NCBI RefSeq assembly: GCF_028858725.1
Contig: NC_084781.1
Coordinates: 7,138,513-7,202,512, forward strand
Source of the DNA: Colius striatus
Taxonomy: Eukaryota; Chordata; Aves; Coliiformes; Coliidae
Length of the DNA stretch: 64,000 nt
Reading direction: 5' to 3'
Shown here: piece by piece, positions 43,001 to 64,000 of the stretch
Layout: the number at the start of each line of letters is the position of its first letter
How positions within the stretch are numbered: the first letter of the stretch is position 1
The notes under the pieces: model-generated
The model's input: the letters and a program-made list of their open reading frames with translations, nothing else
Told to the model about the DNA's origin: nothing
The model's database searches: none
Position numbers and translations under genes: made by a program

Positions 43001-46000
43001 CATCCTGGGATGTATTAGAAGGTCTGTGGTTAGTAGGTCAAGAGAGTTCCGTCTCGTCCTCTACTCTGGCCTCCTGGGACCGCATCTGGAATATTATGTC
43101 CAGCTCTGGGACCCTCAGTTCCAGAAGGACAGGTTGCTGCTGGAGAGAGTTCAGTATAGGGCCACCAAGATGATGAAGGGAGTGCAGCATCTCCCTTTTG
43201 ATGAAAGGCTGAGAGAGCTGGAGCTCTTCAGCTTGGAGGAGATCATAAATGTGTACAAATACGTAAAGGGAGGGTGTCAGGAGAATGGAGCCAGGCTGTT
43301 CTCGGTGATGTCCAATGACAGGACAAGGGACAACGGGTACAAGCTGGAACACAAGAGGTTCCAAAGAAATCTGAGGAACAATTTCTTCTCTATGAGGGTG
43401 ATGGGGCACTGGAACCGGCTGCCCCAATCGGTTGTGGAGTCTTCTTCTCTGGGGACTTTCAAAGCCTGCCTGGATGAGTGCCTGTGTGACCTACTCTGAG
43501 TGGCCTGGTGTGGCGGGGGGTTGGACTAGATGATCTCTTGAGGTCTCTTCCAACTCTTAACATTCTGTGACTTTGTGAGAGCCTCCATGGCAGACGTGTC
43601 GGTCGAGTCGGGGAGCACGCATGTTGAACCCGAATAGCGGGCTCCTGCGATGGAGAGGAGAGCTCCCGTCACCGATCCGTCTTTGCTACCTCACGTACGG
43701 AAGCTGAAGTGGGAGGTTTGCGGCACGGAACCGAGTCTGGCAGCAAGCGCGACTGTTTTTCTGGCCACGATGAGTCGATGTCACCCATTGTTCTTAAAGG
43801 TCTTGCCGTGGCACGGCTGCTTCTGGTTGAGGCTGTCAACTGATCTCCTTCCTTTTCTTTCTAGGTGCTGTGCTGCCACCTGTCAGCTGAAGCTGTGAGA
43901 TTCCCCGTCTCTGTTACTCAGCAGTCCCCGTCTGCCGTGTCCGTGGACACCTATCGCGTCACTTTGGCCGCGCTGCAGGCTCAGGTAACGGCTGCCATCG
44001 AACTTTTTTCTTTTTCCTGGCCTCGTGATGATCGAGGAACGTGGATTCCATTTAGCTCCGATAAAAGCTGCCACGTGCCAGAAGACAAAAGTGCTGAGGG
44101 AGAATGCTGAGGGAGCTGGCTGATGTGATTGCTAAGCCTCTCTCCATCATTTTTGAACAATCACGGAGGACAGGTGAGGTGCCTGTGGACTGGAGAAGGG
44201 ACAATGTCACTCCAGTCTTCAAAGAGGGCAGGAAGGATGACCCAGGAAGCTACAGGCCGGTCAGCCTCATCTCCATCCATGGAAAGGTGATGGAACAGCT
44301 CATCCTGAATGTTGTCGCAAAACATATGAAGGAAAAGATGGTTGTCAGAGGGAGTCAAAAAGGATTCGCCCAGAGGAAATCTCATTTGACCGACCCGATA
44401 GCCTTCTGTGATGGCATAACCGGCTGGCTAGATGAGGGGAGAGCAGCAGATGTCATCTACCTTGACTTCAGTGAGGCTTTTGACACTATCTCCCATAACA
44501 TCCTCCTCAGAAAGCTCAGGCAGTGTGGCTTGGACGAGCGGACGGTGAGGTGGATCGAGAGCTGGCTGAACGACAGAGCCCAGAGAGTGGTGATCAATGT
44601 CACGGAATCGAGTTGGAGGCCTGTGGCCAGTGGAGTTCCACAGGGATCGGTTCCGGGGCCGGCCTTGTTCAACATCCTCATCAACGACCTGGATGAGGGG
44701 ACAGAGGGATCCTCAGCGAGTTTGCTGACGACACCAAACTGGGAGGACTGGCTGATTCACCAGAGGCTGTGCTGCCAGTCAGCGGGATCTCAACCGGCTC
44801 GAGAGACGGGCAGAGAGGAACCTCGTGAGGTTCAACGAGGACAAGTGTGGAGTCCTGCATCTGGGAAGGAACACCCCCTGCACCGGTACAGGCTGGGGAT
44901 CGAACTGCTGGAGAGCAGTTCTGTAGAGAGAGACCCAGGACTCCTGGTTGACAATAAACACGAGACAGCAATGTGCCCTCATGGCCAAGAAGGCCAATGG
45001 CATCCTGGGATGCACCAAGAAGAATGTGGCCAGCAGGTCGAGGGAGGTTGTTCTCCCCCTCTACTCTGCCCTGACAAGACCTCATCTGGAGTACCGTGTC
45101 CGGTTCTGGGCTCTCCAGCTCAAGAGGGATGGAGAACTTCCAGAGAGAGTGTGGTACAGGGCCGCCAAGACGATCAGGAGACTGGAACATCTTTCATATG
45201 GGGAAAGGCTGCGGGACCTGGGGCTGTTCCGTCTGGAGAAAAGAAGACTGAGGGGGAATCTTATTAATATTTACAAATATCTAAATGGTGGGTGTCAGGA
45301 GGTTGGGACATCCCTTTTTTTCTGTTGTAGCTAGCAACAGGACGAGGGGTAATGGGATGAAGCTGGAACACAAAAAGTTCCATTTAAATGTAAGAAAAAA
45401 CTGTTTTACTGTGAGGGTGATGGAGCGGTGGAACAGGCTGGCCGGAGGGGTTGTGGAGTCTCCTTCCTTGGAGGTCTTTGAGGCCCGCCTGGACGTGTTC
45501 CTATGTGACCTGATCCAGGTGGAACCTGCTTCTGCAGGGGGGTCGGACTAGATGATCTCTAAAGGTCCCTTCCAGCCCTACCGTTCTATGATTCTGTGAT
45601 TCTAAGAGTCACCTCCTGGAAAGAGAAACCGACTGTGGGTATTTGTTCTGATCCAGGTGGAGATCCGCTTGGGGGAGGTAGAGAATGAAGGTCTTCTGGT
45701 GTCGTGGATGTTCAAGGACAGACCAGACCTGAACCTTTCAGTTCTTCCAAGACATCGGCCTGACGAGGTGAGCGGTAAACGACAGGAAGCTGGACCAGAG
45801 CGGAGGAAGGGCGGGAGGGTCGGAAGCGGCACTTGATGTGCTTGGAGGAAGGCCGCCATGGAGGGGAGATGTTATAGCGGCTCGCCAGGGGGTACCGGCT
45901 TGATGCTGTCAAATGAGTGTATCCTGGAGCGGGCCAAAGCGGTACCGATGCCCTTTGTCTGAGTCGATCCGACAGCCAAACAGTAGTCTGTGTAGCAGAC

Positions 46001-57010: not shown

Positions 57011-57079
57011 AAGTTCCTACCACAAAAAAGGAGCAAAAAACTTAATAAAAAAGGAGCAAAAAACCCCACCTCCAGCAGT

Positions 57080-57307
57080 CCCCATCCTGCCGCGGTGCCA
57101 AGCAGTGGTGCCGAGACGGCCACATCCTGCCGCGGTGCAGAGCAGTGTTGGTGAGCAGGCCACATCCTGCCGAGGTGCTGAGCAGTGGTGCTGAGCGGGT
57201 CCCATCCTGCCAGAGGAGTCAGCGGTGGTGCTGAGCGAGCCACATTCTGCTGGGGTGCTGAGGACTGGTGCTGAGCGGGCTACATTCTGGCGGGGTGCTG
57301 AGCAACC
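57080..57307 (+). repeat. 40-bp minisatellite, about 5.7 units
   Basis: Unit starts (CCACATCCTGCC or close) fall at 57080, 57120, 57160, 57200, 57240 and 57280: six starts at an exact 40-base period with substitutions but no indels. Each unit carries a GGTGCTGAGC-type half. 40 is not a multiple of three, so the open minus frame across it is not a repeat protein. Confidence 0.92.
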
Positions 57308-57309
57308 CA

Positions 57310-58190
57310 CAAATATCTTAAACTTTCAGAATTAGTGTCCAAGAATTGGATTGCTATGCTGAATTTATTACGTACACACACATGAAACAGAACTTTTATC
57401 CCATAGAGTACTCCACTAAATTTATTTTGAATCTTTCATTATTTTTTTCAGAGCAGTGTGCTCAATTTCTCGTGAGCATGTAATTGTCATCTGAGGATTT
57501 TCTATCCGACAGAGCACTCTGCCAAATTTGTTACGTGCACACATCCAAAACTTAGAGAATTTTAGTCCTATAGGGTACTCTGCCAAATGTCTGCACACAT
57601 CTGAAATTTATAGAATTTCTGTCTGATAGAGTACTCTGCCATATCTGTGTGTGCAGTAATCTGAAACTTACAGAATTTTGTACATTAATTAGAATACTCT
57701 GCTGAATGTCTTTTGTGCAGCTGTTCAAACCTTACCGAATTTCTGCACGATAGAGTTTTTTTGTCGTGCGCACACTTCTGAAACTTAATGAGTTTATCCG
57801 ATAGAATGGTCTGCTGAATTTATAACATGCAGACATTTGAAACTTATAGAATTTCTGTACTATAGAGCACTTTACTGAATTTATCACGTGGACATTTTAG
57901 GAACTTAAAGATTTCTTCTATGATAGAGTACTCTGCTGTATTTTTTGCATCCATTTATGTGAAAGTTATGATTTTTTTTCCTGGTAATTGTCACAGTCAG
58001 CTGGAATTATTGTTGCCCATACATGAAAATTACAGAATTTCTGTCCAATTATTGGAGTACCGTACTGAGTTTCTTACATACATATACATGGAACTTACTG
58101 AATTGTTTTCCAATAGAGTACTCTACTGAATTTATCGTGTGCACACATCTGAAACTTACAGAATTTCTGTCTGATTTATATAGTTTTCTC
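57310..58190 (+). repeat. Diverged AT-rich satellite, ~60-bp unit, ~15 copies
   Basis: A tandem array of degenerate units of about 60 bases. Each reads roughly GAAACTTACAGAATTTCTGT, then a GATAGAGTACTCTGCTGAAT block, then a TTTATTACGTGCACACATCT block. Copies start near 57317, 57383, 57487, 57545, 57600, 57660, 57725, 57778, 57837, 57897, 57957, 58024, 58087 and 58148, with one weak copy near 57440. Identity between units is low, so the array is old. Confidence 0.85.
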
Positions 58191-58496
58191 TGCAGTTAAG
58201 TCTGGTACCTTTCTTTTTCTATTTACACCCCAGTATAGCTAAATATAAATCCTTATCTGATCACATCGTAGATCTTAGAGACCCAGTCAGCATCCGAGAG
58301 CAGTTCGTATCTAGCAGCTAGATGAGCTTTTAATATTTAATCCTTTATGCACCATAATCTTCTGGCAGAGCAGAAACCTCAACAGTCCTCCCTAGGAATC
58401 TTTTATGGCTGTGGATCGGTAACTCCTCCCCTTCCCCTCCCCTTCCTCTCCTCTCTCCCAGGTGTCAGCCATAAGAGCAGTGGGTGGGACTCGGGG

Positions 58497-58572
58497 TATA
58501 AGAGCCACGGCCCTGGCCAAGGGAGCTCATTCTCCTCCCAGGTTACTCCCAGTGCTTTTGGCATTCTCTTGG
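58497..58572 (+). promoter_or_regulatory. TATA/Inr core promoter and short first exon
   Basis: TATAAGAG at 58497-58504 lies 32 bases before the A of TCATTCT (58527-58533), a full match to the vertebrate initiator YYANWYY. The presumed exon, about 58529-58572, has no ATG and ends in GG|GTGAGT, a strong splice donor. A CCTCCCC-rich tract lies upstream at 58425-58460. It points straight into the tandem module array. Transcription is inferred. Confidence 0.6.
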
Positions 58573-58694
58573 GTGAGTATTAAGCTGAGGTTAAGCTATT
58601 CAGGCAGATGCATATTGCTATCAAGATAAGCAGAGGTAATCACTCAAAGCTGAATATCTAGTAGAAGTTAAAATTCAATAGATGTTTTTCAGGT

Positions 58695-60160
58695 CAGAGC
58701 TGAGACTGGGGGCTAAAGCAATTGTTTTCAAGGGTCATCGATGGTGAAGTTACAAGGTTCTGTCGTTTGGGTCTCACAGGAGGTCCCCGAGTCTGACGCA
58801 GTAGGACCGAGTGACCCAGGTGGAGGGATAGAGGTCAAGGTAAAGGATCCTAACACGGGGATCTGTGTGGGTTTGGACAGTATCTCATGTCTTTTAGTTT
58901 CATCTTTGTTTATGGTGTTTCTACAGATGGCATAAGACGCTTCGGAGGTGGGAAGCCATACACCAAGGAGGAGACTGAAAAGGTGAGGCAGATGTCATCC
59001 CTGATAGTCTTTAAAACTCTCTTACTCCAAGGCAGTGAATTGCTTTTTCTTGTTTTGCAGGAGCCATGAGGGCAGCCTTCGGAGCATTCGCAGTGAGCCG
59101 GGCCGGTAGGGAGGAGGGTATTGGGGCCGGTGCCTTTGCAGAAGTGCCGTGGTTATTTTTTGTCTTTGAATCTCAGGTGCCAAAGGCATGACAGCAGTGA
59201 TGTCAGACTCCGGGAGGAGCAGGTGAGCAGAACCCATCCGGCTACAGGGGGTGGTTGTCGGAACAGATGTTGACATGGGCTGCCCCAATGCTCCCCATTT
59301 GTGACGTTTCTTTTAGTGTCTTTGCAGATGCCTAAGAGTATCGTGGCACCTGCAGGTGGGCCCTAGTTTTAGTGGGGATGGACTCAGACTGTACGAGAGT
59401 TAAGTTGAGGAATGTGATCGGGGAGGGGCAGACAGCATCGACCATCTTGGGGTTGGGAGTTTGAAGGGAGTGGAGGAGAGAGAGTGTTTGGGAACCATCC
59501 CCTTTGGGCAAGGGAAGGGTTAGGTTTAGCTTTTAGCAGGCAGCTAATATAGGTTGGGCAGGGTGGCTCCAGCCTCTGTGTTGTCTGTCGTGTAATCTGT
59601 TTTCTGTGTCCCAGAACTTCCTCAGGTCCTGGAATCCTCTTAGTGCTCGAGCGCGGCACGCATCTCAGACTTCATCCATACCGTCTCAAATCACGGTCCT
59701 CACCGTTCCGGTGCCGGTCGGGCGCCGCTTTCCTTTTATCCGAAACTGTGGACCGGTTTCACATCTCTTAGTTTTCCATCGGTCCGGTTTCATGGCGTCG
59801 TCCACTGCGCTCTTGAGTCATCCTTTTCCAGACTGAGTTTTGTTTCCTTGATGTGTGACTTCCTCAGACTTGAAGCAGACTTCTCATGCATCCATGTCTG
59901 TCCTGACAGCAGCTTCTCATCCCAGGCTGTTATCTTTGCCCCTGTTTGGGGCTGCCCTAGAGCCTCCTCACTTTGCCATCACAGCCCCACGGGTCTTTTT
60001 GCTCAGTGGCATTTTCAATTTGGCGTCCTGTCTTCAGGACTCTTCTCCTGTTTGTATATCAGTGTCCACATTCCCTGAGGTGTCGATGTCAGCACATGGG
60101 TGTTGGGTTCAGAGCCACTCTGCCTGGGTGAGCGTGAGGTCCAGCACTAGGGATTTGATT
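58695..60160 (+). other. Module copy A (blocks 3-7)
   Basis: Starts within the intron after block 2; blocks 1 and 2 are absent and the TATA promoter stands in their place. Exon-like blocks: 3 at 58780-58839 (frame reading EVPESDAVGPSDPGGG), 4 at 58927-58982 (FGGGKPYTKEETEK), 5 at 59061-59092, 6 at 59177-59222, 7 at 59328-59355. A conserved spacer follows. Splicing blocks 3, 4 and 5 gives an early stop in every frame, so this is either non-coding or decayed. Confidence 0.5.
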
Positions 60161-60164
60161 TAAC

Positions 60165-61930
60165 GAGAGACTGGAGTTGAGTTCTGAATAGCTTTGTATA
60201 GTGTTGAGCTCTGGAACTGTTTGTTTGTGATTGGGCCTCTGGGTGGTTTGTTTTATATATGTTTTCACAGATGCTGAGGAACAAGCTGTGGATCGGGTAT
60301 TGAGTGGATTGCTGCGAGAAGGTGAGTGGTGACGTGGAGTGGGAGGGAAGGGGGGGATGAGTGACTGTATCGCTACGTGATGTTGTGTTTGTGTTCTGTT
60401 TTGAGGGTTTGAAAGCACAATGGAGGAAGGACTTTGGCACTGCAAAGGACTCAGCCAGGTGAGCAGAGACTGGGGGCTAAAGAAGCTGTTATCGGGGGTC
60501 ACGGATGATGAATTTACCAGATTCTCTTGTTTGTGTCTCACAGGAGGACCCTCAGCCTGATACAGCAAGACCTCATGAGCCAGGTGGAGGGCTAGAGGCC
60601 AAGGTAAAGGAGACAGATGGGGATCCCTGTGGGTTTGTTCAGTATCTGATTATGTGGTTTAGTTTCTTGTGGTTTTCTGCAGATGCCAAAAGATACCTTG
60701 GAGGGGTGAAGCCACACGCCGAGGAGGAGGCTGAAAAGGTGAGGCAGATGTCATCCCTGATGGTATTTAAAACTCTTCTGCTGAAAGGCAGTGAAGTGTT
60801 CTTGTTTTTCAGGGGCTGTGAGGGTAGCCTCCGGAGCATTTGAAGTGAGTCAGGCCAGTAGCAAGGAGGGTGTTGAGGGCGGTGCCTTCGGAGAAGCGCC
60901 ACAGTTATTTTCCACGTTTGAATCTCAGGCACCTAAGGGACAACCGCATCAGCGTCGGACTCTGGAAGGAGCAGGTGCGGGGAACCTCTCAGGCTATGGG
61001 GGGTGGTTGTCAGAGCAGAGGTTGACATCTGTCACCCCAATGCTCACCACTTGCCCTATTTGTGGGGTTTCTTTTAATCTTTTAATCTCTTTACAGATGC
61101 CCAAGAGGAGCGTGGCGCCCGCAGGTGGACCCCGGTTTTAGTGGATATGCACTTCAGACTGTACGAGAGTTAAGTTGAGGGACAGGATCGGGGAGGCAAG
61201 GGGCAGACAGCCTCTGACATCGTAAGGTGGGGGTTCTAAGGGAGCAGAGCAGAGAGGCTGTTCAGGACCATCTGCTTTGGGAAAGGGAAGGGTGAGCTTT
61301 TAGGAGAGAGCTAACATAGGCCGGGCAGGGCGGCTGCAGCCTGCGTGTGTGTGTTGTGCTGTAGTTTGTTTTCTGTGTCTTGGAACTTCCTCAGGTCCTG
61401 AAAGCCTCTTTGTGTTCAAGGAGCAGGGCAGGTGACTCGGGCGTCATCCCTACAGTCTCATATCATGGCCCTCACCATCCCGGTGGCGGTCAGCCGCCAC
61501 TTTTCTGGCATCTGAAACCATGGATCGGTTTCACATCTTGAAGTTTTCTATCGGTCCCATTCCACGACATCAGCCACTGTGCTCTTGAGTCATTCTTTTT
61601 CAGAGGGAGTCTAGCTCCCTTCATCTGTGACTTTCCCAGCCTCAAAGCCAGACTTCTCATGCATCAATCATCTGTCTGGACAGGAACATCTCATCCCGGG
61701 CTGTTACATTTGCCCCTGTGTGGGGCTGCCCTAGAGTCCCCTGGCTTCAGCATCGCAGCCCCACGGGCCTTTTTGCTCAGTGGCGTTTCCAATCCAGCGT
61801 TCTCTCACTGGGAGTTGTCTCCTATTTGTATGTCGGCATCCATGTTCCCCCCGGTGTCGGTCTCAGCACGTGGGTGTCGGGCTCAGAGCCGCTCTGCCTG
61901 GGGTATGTGAAGCCCAGTGTTAGGGATTTG
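60165..61930 (+). other. Module copy B (blocks 1-7)
   Basis: Most complete copy. Blocks: 1 at 60271-60321 (DAEEQAVDRVLSGLLREG in phase 1), 2 at 60406-60458 (FESTMEEGLWHCKGLSQ), 3 at 60544-60603 (EDPQPDTARPHEPGGG), 4 at 60683-60738 (YLGGVKPHAEEEAEK), 5 at 60813-60844, 6 at 60929-60974, 7 at 61097-61124. Blocks 1-2-3 join in one frame, and blocks 5-6-7 join in one frame (GAFEAPKGQPHQRR). The 3-to-4 and 4-to-5 joins are out of phase with those frames. Confidence 0.5.
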
Positions 61931-61934
61931 CTGT

Positions 61935-63730
61935 AATGCCAGCCTGGAGTTGAATTCTGAGCAGCTTTGTGGAGTGTTGAGCTCTGGAACTGTTCGTCTG
62001 TGATTGTGCTTCAGGGTCATTTGTTTTCTCTCTATCCTCACAGACACAGAGGAAACAAGCCGCATCCCAGAGAGCGACCCGGGGATGGAATGGATCGTCG
62101 AGAGAAGGTTAGCAATGATGTGGAGTGAGAGGGAAGAGTGTGATCGGCGGATGTACCACTACACAATGCTGTGTTTTGCATTCTGTTTTGAAGATTTGAA
62201 GGCACAATGGAGGTGGGACATGGGCACCGGAGAGGCTCTGCCAGGTGAGCAGAGACTGGGGACTAAAGCAGCTGTTTTCAGGGGCCATTGGTGATGAATT
62301 TACCAGATTCCCTTGTTTGTGTCTCACAGGAGGGCCCTCAGCCGGATACAGCAGGACCACGTGAGCCAGATGGAGGGCTAGAGGCCAAGGTAAAGGAGAC
62401 AGATGGGGATCCCTGTGGGTTTGTTCAGTTATCTCATCATGTCTTTCAGTTTCTTGTTTGTATCTTTTCACAGGTGCCATAATATACCTCAGAGGGGTGA
62501 AGCCACACACTGAGGAAGAGGCTGAAAAGGTGAGGCAGATGTCATCCCTGATGGTATTTAAAACTCTCTTGCTGCAAGACAGTGAATGGTTTTTCTCGTT
62601 TTTCAGGGGCTGTGAGGGCAGCCTTCGGAGCATTTGCAGTGAGCCGTGCCAGTAGCGAGGAGTGTGTCAGGGCCGGTGCATTTGGAGAAGCACCACGGTT
62701 ATTTTTTGTCTTTGAATCTCAGATGCCTAAGGGATGACGACAGCCACGTTGGACTCTGGAAGGAGCAGGGTGAGTGGAACACCTCTGCCTTTGGAGGAGG
62801 TGGTTGTCAGAGCGGAGGTCGGTGTAGACTGATGCGATGCTTACTATTTGCCCCATTTGTGGGGTTTTTTTTGATCAGGCTCCAGACACCCAAGAGGAAC
62901 GTGGCACCCGAAGAAAGGCCTCAGTGAGCGATGTAATTTCCACAGAGATGGACTTCAGAGCATCACACAAGTTAAGTTGAGCGATAGGATCGGGGAGGGG
63001 CAAGGAGGCGGAGGTGATGTTGAGAATTGCAGGATGGGGTTTTAAGGGTAGCAGTGGAGAGAAATTGTCTGGGAACCCTTTCCTTTAGGCAAGGAAAGAG
63101 TTAGGGTTAAATTTTAAGAGGCAGCCAGGATGTGCCGGGCAGGATGGTTCCAGCTTCTGTGTGGGGTGTAAGGTTGTCTGTCCTTTGCATCTCAGGATTT
63201 CCTCGAATCTCGGAGTCTTCTTTGCACTTGAGGACCACGACACGTGACTCGGGCACCTTCCCCGAGGTCTCAAAGAACAAACATCACAATTCGGTGCTTA
63301 TCAGGCGCCACTTTTATTGCATAAGAAGCTTAAACTGTGGATCTGCTTCATGTCTTGAAGTTCTGTCAGTCGTTTCCTCCAGTACGGTGTTCCAGGCTGT
63401 GTCAGCAGCTCTTCTCAGTAGGAATCCCTGTTCTGAGATTCGGTCTCATTCCCTTCATCGCTGTATTCTCTGGGACTCAGAGTCAGGCTTCTTGCTCATC
63501 CATCATCCCGGTCTCGACAGTAACTTCTCATCCTGGGCTGTTCCCTTTGCCTCTTTGCGTGGCTGCCGTGGAGCCTCGCTTCTTTGTCACGGCCCCGTAG
63601 GTCTTTGTGCTTTAGGACATCTCCAGTCCCAGCATCGTGTCACTGAGTCTTCTCACTTCTGTGTCGTGTCGTCTGTGTTCTGTGTGGTGTCGGTGTTTAT
63701 ATGTGTGTACTTACTTTAGAGCCGCTCTGC
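61935..63730 (+). other. Module copy C (blocks 1-7, block 7 degenerate)
   Basis: Blocks: 1 at 62044-62107 (DTEETSRIPESDPGMEW), 2 at 62194-62244, 3 at 62330-62389 (EGPQPDTAGPREPDGG), 4 at 62474-62529 (YLRGVKPHTEEEAEK), 5 at 62607-62638, 6 at 62723-62769. Block 7 near 62890 has lost its clean borders. Block 2 is one base shorter in phase than in copy B, and block 6 is one base longer. Confidence 0.5.
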
Positions 63731-63734
63731 CCGG

Positions 63735-63970
63735 GAGTGTAGAGTCAAGGGCAGATGGAGGAGCACTGAGTGTATGTCACTTTGCTTTTGGTGCATAGGC
63801 TTTGGGGTTTTGTTTACCGAGTGGGCTCTTCGGGGTTTTGTTCAGTGAGTGGGCTTTGCATCTGAGTGACTTGTTCTGTTTGCAGAGACAGAGACTGAAG
63901 TTGTGCTCCAAATAACGACCTGAGGGGCAAGCAGAGCGCCTCAGTGCTGCCGTCATGTGAACACAGCATG
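63735..63970 (+). other. Start of module copy D, cut by window end
   Basis: A TTTGCAG acceptor at 63885 is followed by a block-1-like sequence (ETETEVVLQ in phase 1) and then a stop. It shows the array continues beyond the window. The upstream GAGTGGGCT sequence is duplicated within this copy. Confidence 0.45.
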
Positions 63971-64000
63971 GTACTGCAACTTGGGAGCAGCGCATCGCAG

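Follow-up and report, generated by a model that had tools for sequence, protein, structure and literature searches.

The right-hand end of a Colius striatus contig, C29, carries a promoter-led array of exon-like blocks, which probably represents one copy of a multi-copy, subtelomeric, spliced and non-coding transcription unit directed toward the telomere. The window analysed here covers 64,000 nucleotides of this contig (C29:7138513-7202512), and the array continues past its end. The 7.2-Mb contig has its last base at 7,213,672, 11 kb beyond the window, and its final 4.7 kb consists mostly of TTAGGG repeats. The sequence-only reading of the window had proposed either a gene growing by exon-set duplication or a spliced repeat RNA. 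The locus does not represent one single gene, since the same promoter, units, and terminal exon recur near dozens of contig ends in the 1.21-Gb genome. Of the two proposals, a spliced repeat RNA would be the better one, fitting the comparative evidence on the promoter-led unit, and exon-set duplication fits only as a description of the array of units, in which no coding signal was found. Contig ends are denoted below by the contig label followed by L (left) or R (right), and L009 is the stretch beyond the window on C29 (L009:6281-6444 corresponds to C29:7208793-7208956).

The TATA/initiator (Inr) promoter proposed ahead of the array was confirmed on the forward strand, with the TATA box TATAAGAG at 58497-58504 and the initiator-like GAGCTCATT at 58523-58531, which contains TCATT with the A at 58529, 32 nt past the first T of TATA. 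We aligned 46 of the 53 promoter copies described below (omitting C8 47479136, C17 22567527, C19 16885133, C15 22926593, C15 362795, C14 28585842, and C8 22163), and TATA[AT][AG] occupies the same place in 43 of them. Together with a C-rich box and CCAGGTGTCAG, these elements form a promoter core (58435-58531, forward strand) that evolves at a lower rate than the flanking sequence in at least four promoter subfamilies. Over its 97 alignment columns the rate was 0.66 of the mean, compared with 1.10 outside, and none of 2000 column permutations produced a segment as slow, the limits of the core having been set after the rate profile was inspected. Across 10 divergent copies, 45 of the 97 core columns are invariant, compared with 61 of 334 outside. 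The promoter precedes the whole array and is not repeated in each unit.

A search with positions 58480-64000 as the DNA query returned 56 matching pieces, 25 of them longer than 4 kb, among the best 26 of 152 candidates scored. Two promoter queries, for each of which 40 places were listed, identified at least 53 distinct promoter copies. Forty of these lie within 30 kb of a contig end, at no fewer than 37 distinct ends, and all 40 face outward. The distance from promoter to contig end is 7.5-24 kb at these ends, except for C13R, where the contig breaks 0.3 kb past the promoter. Contigs of just 45-197 kb (C42, C48, C34, and C33) also have promoter copies near their ends. TTAGGG arrays were found at eight ends (C29R, C7L, C48R, C6R, C3R, C3L behind 5 kb of N, C39R, and C23L) out of 11 for which the sequence covered the contig up to, or nearly up to, its final base; C14L finishes in Ns, and the contigs break inside the element at C1L and C13R. 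An exact 35-place pattern made from the known copies gave 37 matches in the genome, all at known places, and its reversed control gave none. The 13 remoter promoters lie between 39 kb and 18.5 Mb from an end; ten face the nearer end, and three face away from it (C7 at 40.6 Mb, C15 at 363 kb, and C32 at 3.90 Mb). The promoter copy on the reverse strand at C7:40628276, which has a terminal exon downstream, lies deep inside a 59-Mb contig, with 18.5 Mb separating it from the nearer end, and could mark either a former chromosome end after fusion or an assembly join.

The 3'-terminal exon of the window copy lies past the window end, at about C29:7206282-7206624. Its acceptor GTTTCCCTGCAG/A (the slash marks the splice border) is followed about 300 bases later by three AATAAA signals within about 45 bases, an arrangement present at all nine ends where our sequence reached this far, the fetched stretches at C42R, C9R, and C1L being too short to contain it. 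In seven aligned ends, a GT-rich stretch lies 3' of the AATAAA cluster. Among the best 40 of 50 candidate terminal exons, two 39-base matches (C17 22573539 and C16 22946272) were dropped, leaving at least 38. Of the 38 listed, 37 are preceded on their own strand by a promoter about 5.6-12.6 kb away (median 9.8 kb; distances were measured between match starts and are accurate to a few hundred bases). The sole unpaired terminal exon among the matches listed is a partial, interior one at C4:51897316-51897692 (C4:51.9 Mb), which might be an old insertion or a source gene. Conversely, 15 of the 53 promoters have no terminal exon among the matches listed, including eight of the 13 far from ends. The TATA box precedes TTAGGG by 11.9-14.2 kb at eight ends. 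There is no AATAAA in the first 8.9 kb after TATA at C29R and only one, at 3.9 kb, at C9R; since we estimate from composition that about one per 10 kb would be expected, this early scarcity means little.

Between promoter and terminal exon, the tandem array of about 1.78 kb per unit was verified, with three units found in the window and the array extending past its end. All units and blocks lie on the forward strand. Unit 1 (58686-60449) holds blocks at 58780-58839, 58927-58982, 59061-59092, 59177-59222, 59328-59355, 60271-60321, and 60406-60458, the last of which extends nine bases into unit 2. Unit 2 (60450-62235) holds blocks at 60544-60603, 60683-60738, 60813-60844, 60929-60974, 61097-61124, 62044-62107, and 62194-62244, the last again extending nine bases into unit 3. 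Unit 3 (62236-64000), the homology of which runs on beyond the window end, has blocks at 62330-62389, 62474-62529, 62607-62638, 62723-62769, and 62886-62913. The unit starts at 58686, 60450, and 62236 are 1764 and 1786 bases apart, and repeat families with one copy in each of the three units are spaced at 1752-1837 bases. As claimed, blocks 3, 4, and 5 measure 60, 56, and 32 bases in all three units. AG precedes all 19 listed blocks and GT follows 18, the exception being the block-7 homologue at the end of the unit 3 series, which lacks a donor. Between copies, several of these borders decay (the block 5 donor, the block 6 acceptor, and the block 7 acceptor and donor), so that loss of the AG/GT borders, which the sequence-only reading had named as evidence against itself, was found in part.

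A first 5' splice site lies 24 nt past the Inr A (30 nt past the start of GAGCTCATT) in 44 of 46 promoters, reading GTAAAT in 26 copies, GTAAGT in 12, GTAGGT in three, GTGAGT in two, and GTAGAT in one; another copy has GCAAGT, which may be a GC donor. The window copy (C29R) is the only one of the 46 without this donor and is about five bases shorter than C40R at this place. The donor-ended first exon described from the window needs a correction. The donor TGG/GTGAGT is present at 58572/58573, giving a first exon of 58529-58572 on the forward strand if that donor serves; it is private to the window copy, which has lost the usual first donor, and the other 45 promoters examined all lack it.

Sense-strand donors are also in excess. 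In the 7 kb past TATA (6.7 kb in C9R), the window copy has seven consensus donors ([AC]AGGTRAG) on the forward strand and one on the reverse strand, compared with 0.96 ± 1.0 in dinucleotide shuffles, none of 200 of which attained seven. All 11 ends have three to nine such donors, against 0.8-1.0 in shuffles and zero or one on the other strand; the observed counts were attained by zero to six of 200 shuffles, C23L being the weakest case. Under looser donor rules, five ends gave 19-23 donors, compared with one to seven on the opposite strand. Polypyrimidine acceptors showed no excess in the window copy (12 versus 10.3 in shuffles, with 66 of 200 attaining 12). Among the ten other ends, an acceptor excess over shuffles is clear in six (C7L, C14L, C48R, C6R, C3R, and C39R), weak in C3L (15 of 200 shuffles), and absent, as in C29R, from C9R, C1L, and C23L.

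The copies are related to one another to different degrees. Eight other ends are 94-99% alike among themselves and share 82-83% identity with the window's end; among the matches listed, the window's promoter is nearest to those of C9R, C40R, C10L, and C1L (78-81%). The window copy is missing a stretch of about 2 kb, made up of about 1 kb and a partial unit, which separates the promoter from unit 1 in C9R and C1L. Units were aligned in 28 and later 34 rows, and their tree has three groups: unit 1 of C29R, C9R, and C1L; unit 2 of the same three ends, joined by units one and two of the other ends; and the final units of all ends. The block 3-4 stretch was also found 3' of the promoters on C30, C33, C34, C35, C37, C26R, and C32.

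The putative transcription unit is non-coding, as neither the reading frames, the spliced open reading frames (ORFs), nor Pfam gave a coding signal. Of 34 units, 33 keep block 3 free of stops in one frame, and 23 do so for one frame of block 4, which has lost one base in 11 of the 34. The open frames of neighbouring blocks join out of phase, and the joined blocks contained stops in all three frames in each of the 12 units tested out of the 34. Changes in block 3 by codon position (1.35, 0.75, and 1.40) showed no third-position excess. The longest spliced ORF obtained by dynamic programming was equalled or exceeded by local-shuffle controls at all five ends, namely by six of 40 controls at C29R, 14 at C1L, 28 at C9R, 16 at C6R, and 35 at C39R. 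A 61-aa stop-to-stop ORF spans the terminal exon acceptor. None of six ORFs searched in Pfam matched a family above the cut-off, and two sub-threshold matches (E 0.0029 and 0.064) were taken as chance. Blocks 3, 5, and 7 keep the same length in all 34 units, block 1 varies in length, and insertion places are fewer in blocks (0.30 per 100 sites) than outside (1.99). No conserved element emerged within the unit, its slowest 30-nt segments (0.43 of the mean) missing the 5% permutation bound of 0.41.

From this anatomy, we infer a unit that is transcribed and spliced. RNA polymerase II would start at the Inr of a TATA/Inr promoter facing the chromosome end, and the 24-nt first exon would recruit U1. 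The transcript would then be spliced through many small exons in a variable number of tandem modules of about 1.78 kb and end at the AATAAA cluster of the terminal exon, about 5.6-12.6 kb downstream. Occasional read-through might produce UUAGGG-containing RNA, and the RNA or the read-through itself might act at telomeres by analogy with telomeric repeat-containing RNA (TERRA). The copies would have spread, and been partly homogenised, by exchange between chromosome ends. Present-day selection on the unit is plausible; what it seems to preserve is outward transcription as such, through the promoter and the promoter-proximal 5' splice site, and not the sequence of the exons. The window copy may be weakened or may use a substitute donor because both the first donor and the roughly 2 kb after exon 1 are missing from it. 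At all five ends profiled (C29R, C7L, C6R, C48R, and C39R, of which all but C29R are close copies of one another), the G-C skew shifts from negative over the 3 kb 5' of the promoter to positive over about 10-12 kb 3' of it; values upstream of the fetched stretches (beyond about -5 kb at C6R, C48R, and C39R) were excluded as wrap-around artefacts. Such a turn at the promoter would be a mark left by transcription; replication direction is another source of strand bias.

Several observations weigh against this interpretation. Outward orientation is no independent proof of function because it is expected if ends exchange sequence, and most copies are recent relatives, so that copy counts overstate the independent evidence. 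The blocks evolve at 1.15 of the mean rate, slightly above the 0.97 of the remaining unit sequence, and gap openings are no rarer in them (3.35 per 100 sites versus 3.22 outside). The GT and AG at splice borders change only a little more slowly than GT and AG elsewhere (0.71 versus 0.85 for GT and 0.75 versus 0.88 for AG, relative to the mean rate). Among 45 tips, with C29R left out, four of 50 adjacent site pairs (positions 9-59) equal the GT of the first donor in slowness, and the rate test alone is therefore only suggestive; the fixed spacing of this donor in 45 of 46 promoters is the stronger evidence. Singleton changes polarised among seven ends lacked the excess of A>G over T>C expected from germline transcription, the ratios being 0.73 upstream and 0.70 and 1.09 in the body, from the small numbers of 39, 138, and 94 singletons in the three stretches. 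As the poly(A) cluster precedes the telomere, a TERRA-type RNA would need read-through. Finally, the conservation of promoter and donor could reflect past function.

A more ambitious version of the favoured reading, which we advance only tentatively, is a dedicated vertebrate gene family transcribing its own chromosome ends, with a TATA promoter that recurs at many ends and faces the telomere, an obligatory proximal 5' splice site, a spliced array, and AATAAA barriers before TTAGGG. Such a family might be the main source, or the read-through regulator, of telomeric RNA in this lineage. With selection on initiation and first splicing only, the act of transcription would itself be the function.

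The past function just mentioned leads to the alternative that survives best, though we regard it as unlikely: a relic of a former gene family, once active and perhaps coding, carried onto chromosome ends, amplified there and functionless now, its promoter and splice signals being mere leftovers. Blocks changing at about the rate of the rest, borders decayed in several copies, the one-base deletion in block 4, the missing first donor of the window copy, and recent changes free of transcription bias would all suit a relic. However, a dead family should lose its promoter core and donor as fast as everything else, whereas here the core lags behind its flanks in rate of change and 44 of 46 copies, drawn from at least four subfamilies, retain the first donor; moreover, no frame links the blocks. 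Less probable still is an untranscribed subtelomeric macrosatellite with incidental splice-like and promoter-like motifs. The kilobase tandem unit, the similarity of the ends, and near-neutral change in the units agree with it, but a macrosatellite accounts neither for the sense-strand donor excess, nor for a promoter ahead of the array instead of in every unit, nor for the slower core and fixed first donor, nor for the pairing of a promoter with a terminal exon bearing clustered poly(A) signals in 37 of the 38 listed copies.

It is very improbable that the unit is the body of TERRA proper, with promoter transcripts traversing the telomere unprocessed at the AATAAA cluster. The direction, the strand, which would give UUAGGG, and the TATA-to-TTAGGG distances agree with this idea, human TERRA starts being placed up to 5-10 kb from the telomere in the available text of one report (PMC4992061). 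Nevertheless, most transcripts would be stopped by the triple-AATAAA terminal exon found at all nine ends reached and by the AATAAA that recurs periodically just before TTAGGG at three ends (letters inspected at C29R only). Least probable of all is a live, fast-evolving protein-coding family with exon-set duplication, for which the open frame of the invariably 60-base block 3, the partly open block 4, the 61-aa ORF, and the few insertions in blocks might speak, but which out-of-phase frames, stops in every joined frame of the 12 units tested, spliced ORFs equalled in local shuffles at five of five ends, the codon-position pattern of block 3, and the Pfam result contradict.

Several other features lie around the element. 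At L009:6281-6444, a 17-bp minisatellite of 9.6 copies with AATAAA in each abuts the TTAGGG/TTGGGG array, and AATAAA at the same spacing close before the telomere also occurs at C3R and C39R; this minisatellite could be a transcription-ending barrier. A nearly pure pyrimidine array of 1.2 kb (TCTCTCTCTCTCTTCTGTTTC, L009:4401-5619) lies between the poly(A) cluster and the telomere. A palindrome, CCCCAGCCGG...CCGGCTGGGG, sits between T runs 5' of the terminal exon (L009:3374-3432) and resembles a foldback element. Between unit 3 and the terminal exon, the sense strand has T/G-rich degenerate minisatellites (GGGGTTTTG..., L009:120-2010), which have the potential for G-quadruplex RNA. On the inner side of the promoter, the left end of C7 (L013:3604-8161) carries a large satellite of the TCCCTGTGCCCACACCGTG 30-bp family, which is also in the C48 stretch on the other strand. 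In the window, a 40-bp tandem repeat (57074-57304) lies upstream of the promoter, and degenerate repeats of about 56-61 bp form an AT-rich array immediately 5' of it (57310-58200). The 40-bp repeat was unmatched in the seven other ends with at least 2.3 kb of fetched upstream sequence, and the AT-rich array was likewise unmatched in seven other ends with enough such sequence.

Further upstream in the window, ORFs matched the Pfam families of DEAD helicases, VPS11, porphobilinogen deaminase (HMBS), histone H2A, and glycosyl transferase 4, and on these family matches we read them as the probable DDX6, VPS11, HMBS, H2AX, and DPAGT1, a gene order that we take to be that of bird microchromosome 24. 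At the place proposed for C2CD2L, the single ORF searched in Pfam matched no family, and Rfam gave no match at the gathering score within the window. A 389-aa ORF at 44098-45264 contains a reverse transcriptase domain (RVT_1, E 1.6e-21) and presumably belongs to a CR1-type retroelement.

Telomere-directed subtelomeric RNAs are already known, and in vertebrates their loci are hard to define, those of human TERRA being called elusive in the accessible part of one report (PMC4992061). Among the matches listed from the open-licence PMC literature, and in the text read from it, we found no description of such a promoter-led subtelomeric family in birds. As one promoter and a fixed first splice site mark dozens of ends, chromosome-end transcription and selection on it become directly testable. 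If true, the favoured reading would add a spliced, poly(A)-terminated form of telomere-associated RNA, and the family copies offer markers for tracing exchange between chromosome ends.

Among avian systems, PO41 and the Z-macrosatellite are subtelomeric repeat RNAs that also occur in lampbrush subterminal transcription units, and PO41 is a 41-bp tandem repeat transcribed from both strands, according to the available part of the report (PMC4301066). The bird unit shares their subtelomeric origin, with transcripts that are established for them and putative here, and it differs from PO41 as so described in its unit of about 1.78 kb, its single directional promoter, exon-like blocks, and terminal exon. 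Membership in PO41 was rejected, given the spacing of the unit starts instead of a 41-bp tandem unit, and the 40-bp array lies outside the unit. In chicken, CenTe_5k is a conserved 5-kb block by (TTAGGG)n on the short arms of 19 acrocentric chromosomes (PMC9974502, in the text available). Compared by description only, it is likewise a kilobase-sized element adjoining TTAGGG on many bird chromosomes, whereas a promoter and exon structure, present here, are not mentioned for CenTe_5k in that text.

Human TERRA is transcribed from subtelomeric promoters facing the telomere with starts up to 5-10 kb away, and one class of these promoters sits in CpG islands, as the accessible portions of the sources describe (PMC4992061, PMC6600276, PMC13403905). 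The bird promoter is similarly subtelomeric and telomere-facing, with 40 of 40 within 30 kb facing outward and TTAGGG at eight of 11 ends fetched. It is of the TATA/Inr type, and splice sites and poly(A) signals precede the telomere; the CpG observed/expected ratio of the unit body is 0.38-0.52. The poly(A) cluster of the window copy, located 2.4 kb before the TTAGGG array, argues for processing before the telomere would be reached. In Plasmodium falciparum, the long non-coding RNA lncRNA-TARE derives from homologous non-coding loci on 22 of 28 chromosome ends, on average 88% alike, which are read toward the telomere and end before it, with transcripts of 1.5 and 3.1 kb (PMC3218844, as far as its available text goes). 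Compared by these descriptions, both systems have non-coding loci at many ends (at least 37 contig ends here) that are directed toward the telomere, and the bird transcript is predicted likewise to stop short of it. Transcription, demonstrated for lncRNA-TARE, is predicted for the bird unit, which differs in its length of about 6-13 kb, its tandem exon sets, its TATA/Inr promoter, and its fixed first 5' splice site.

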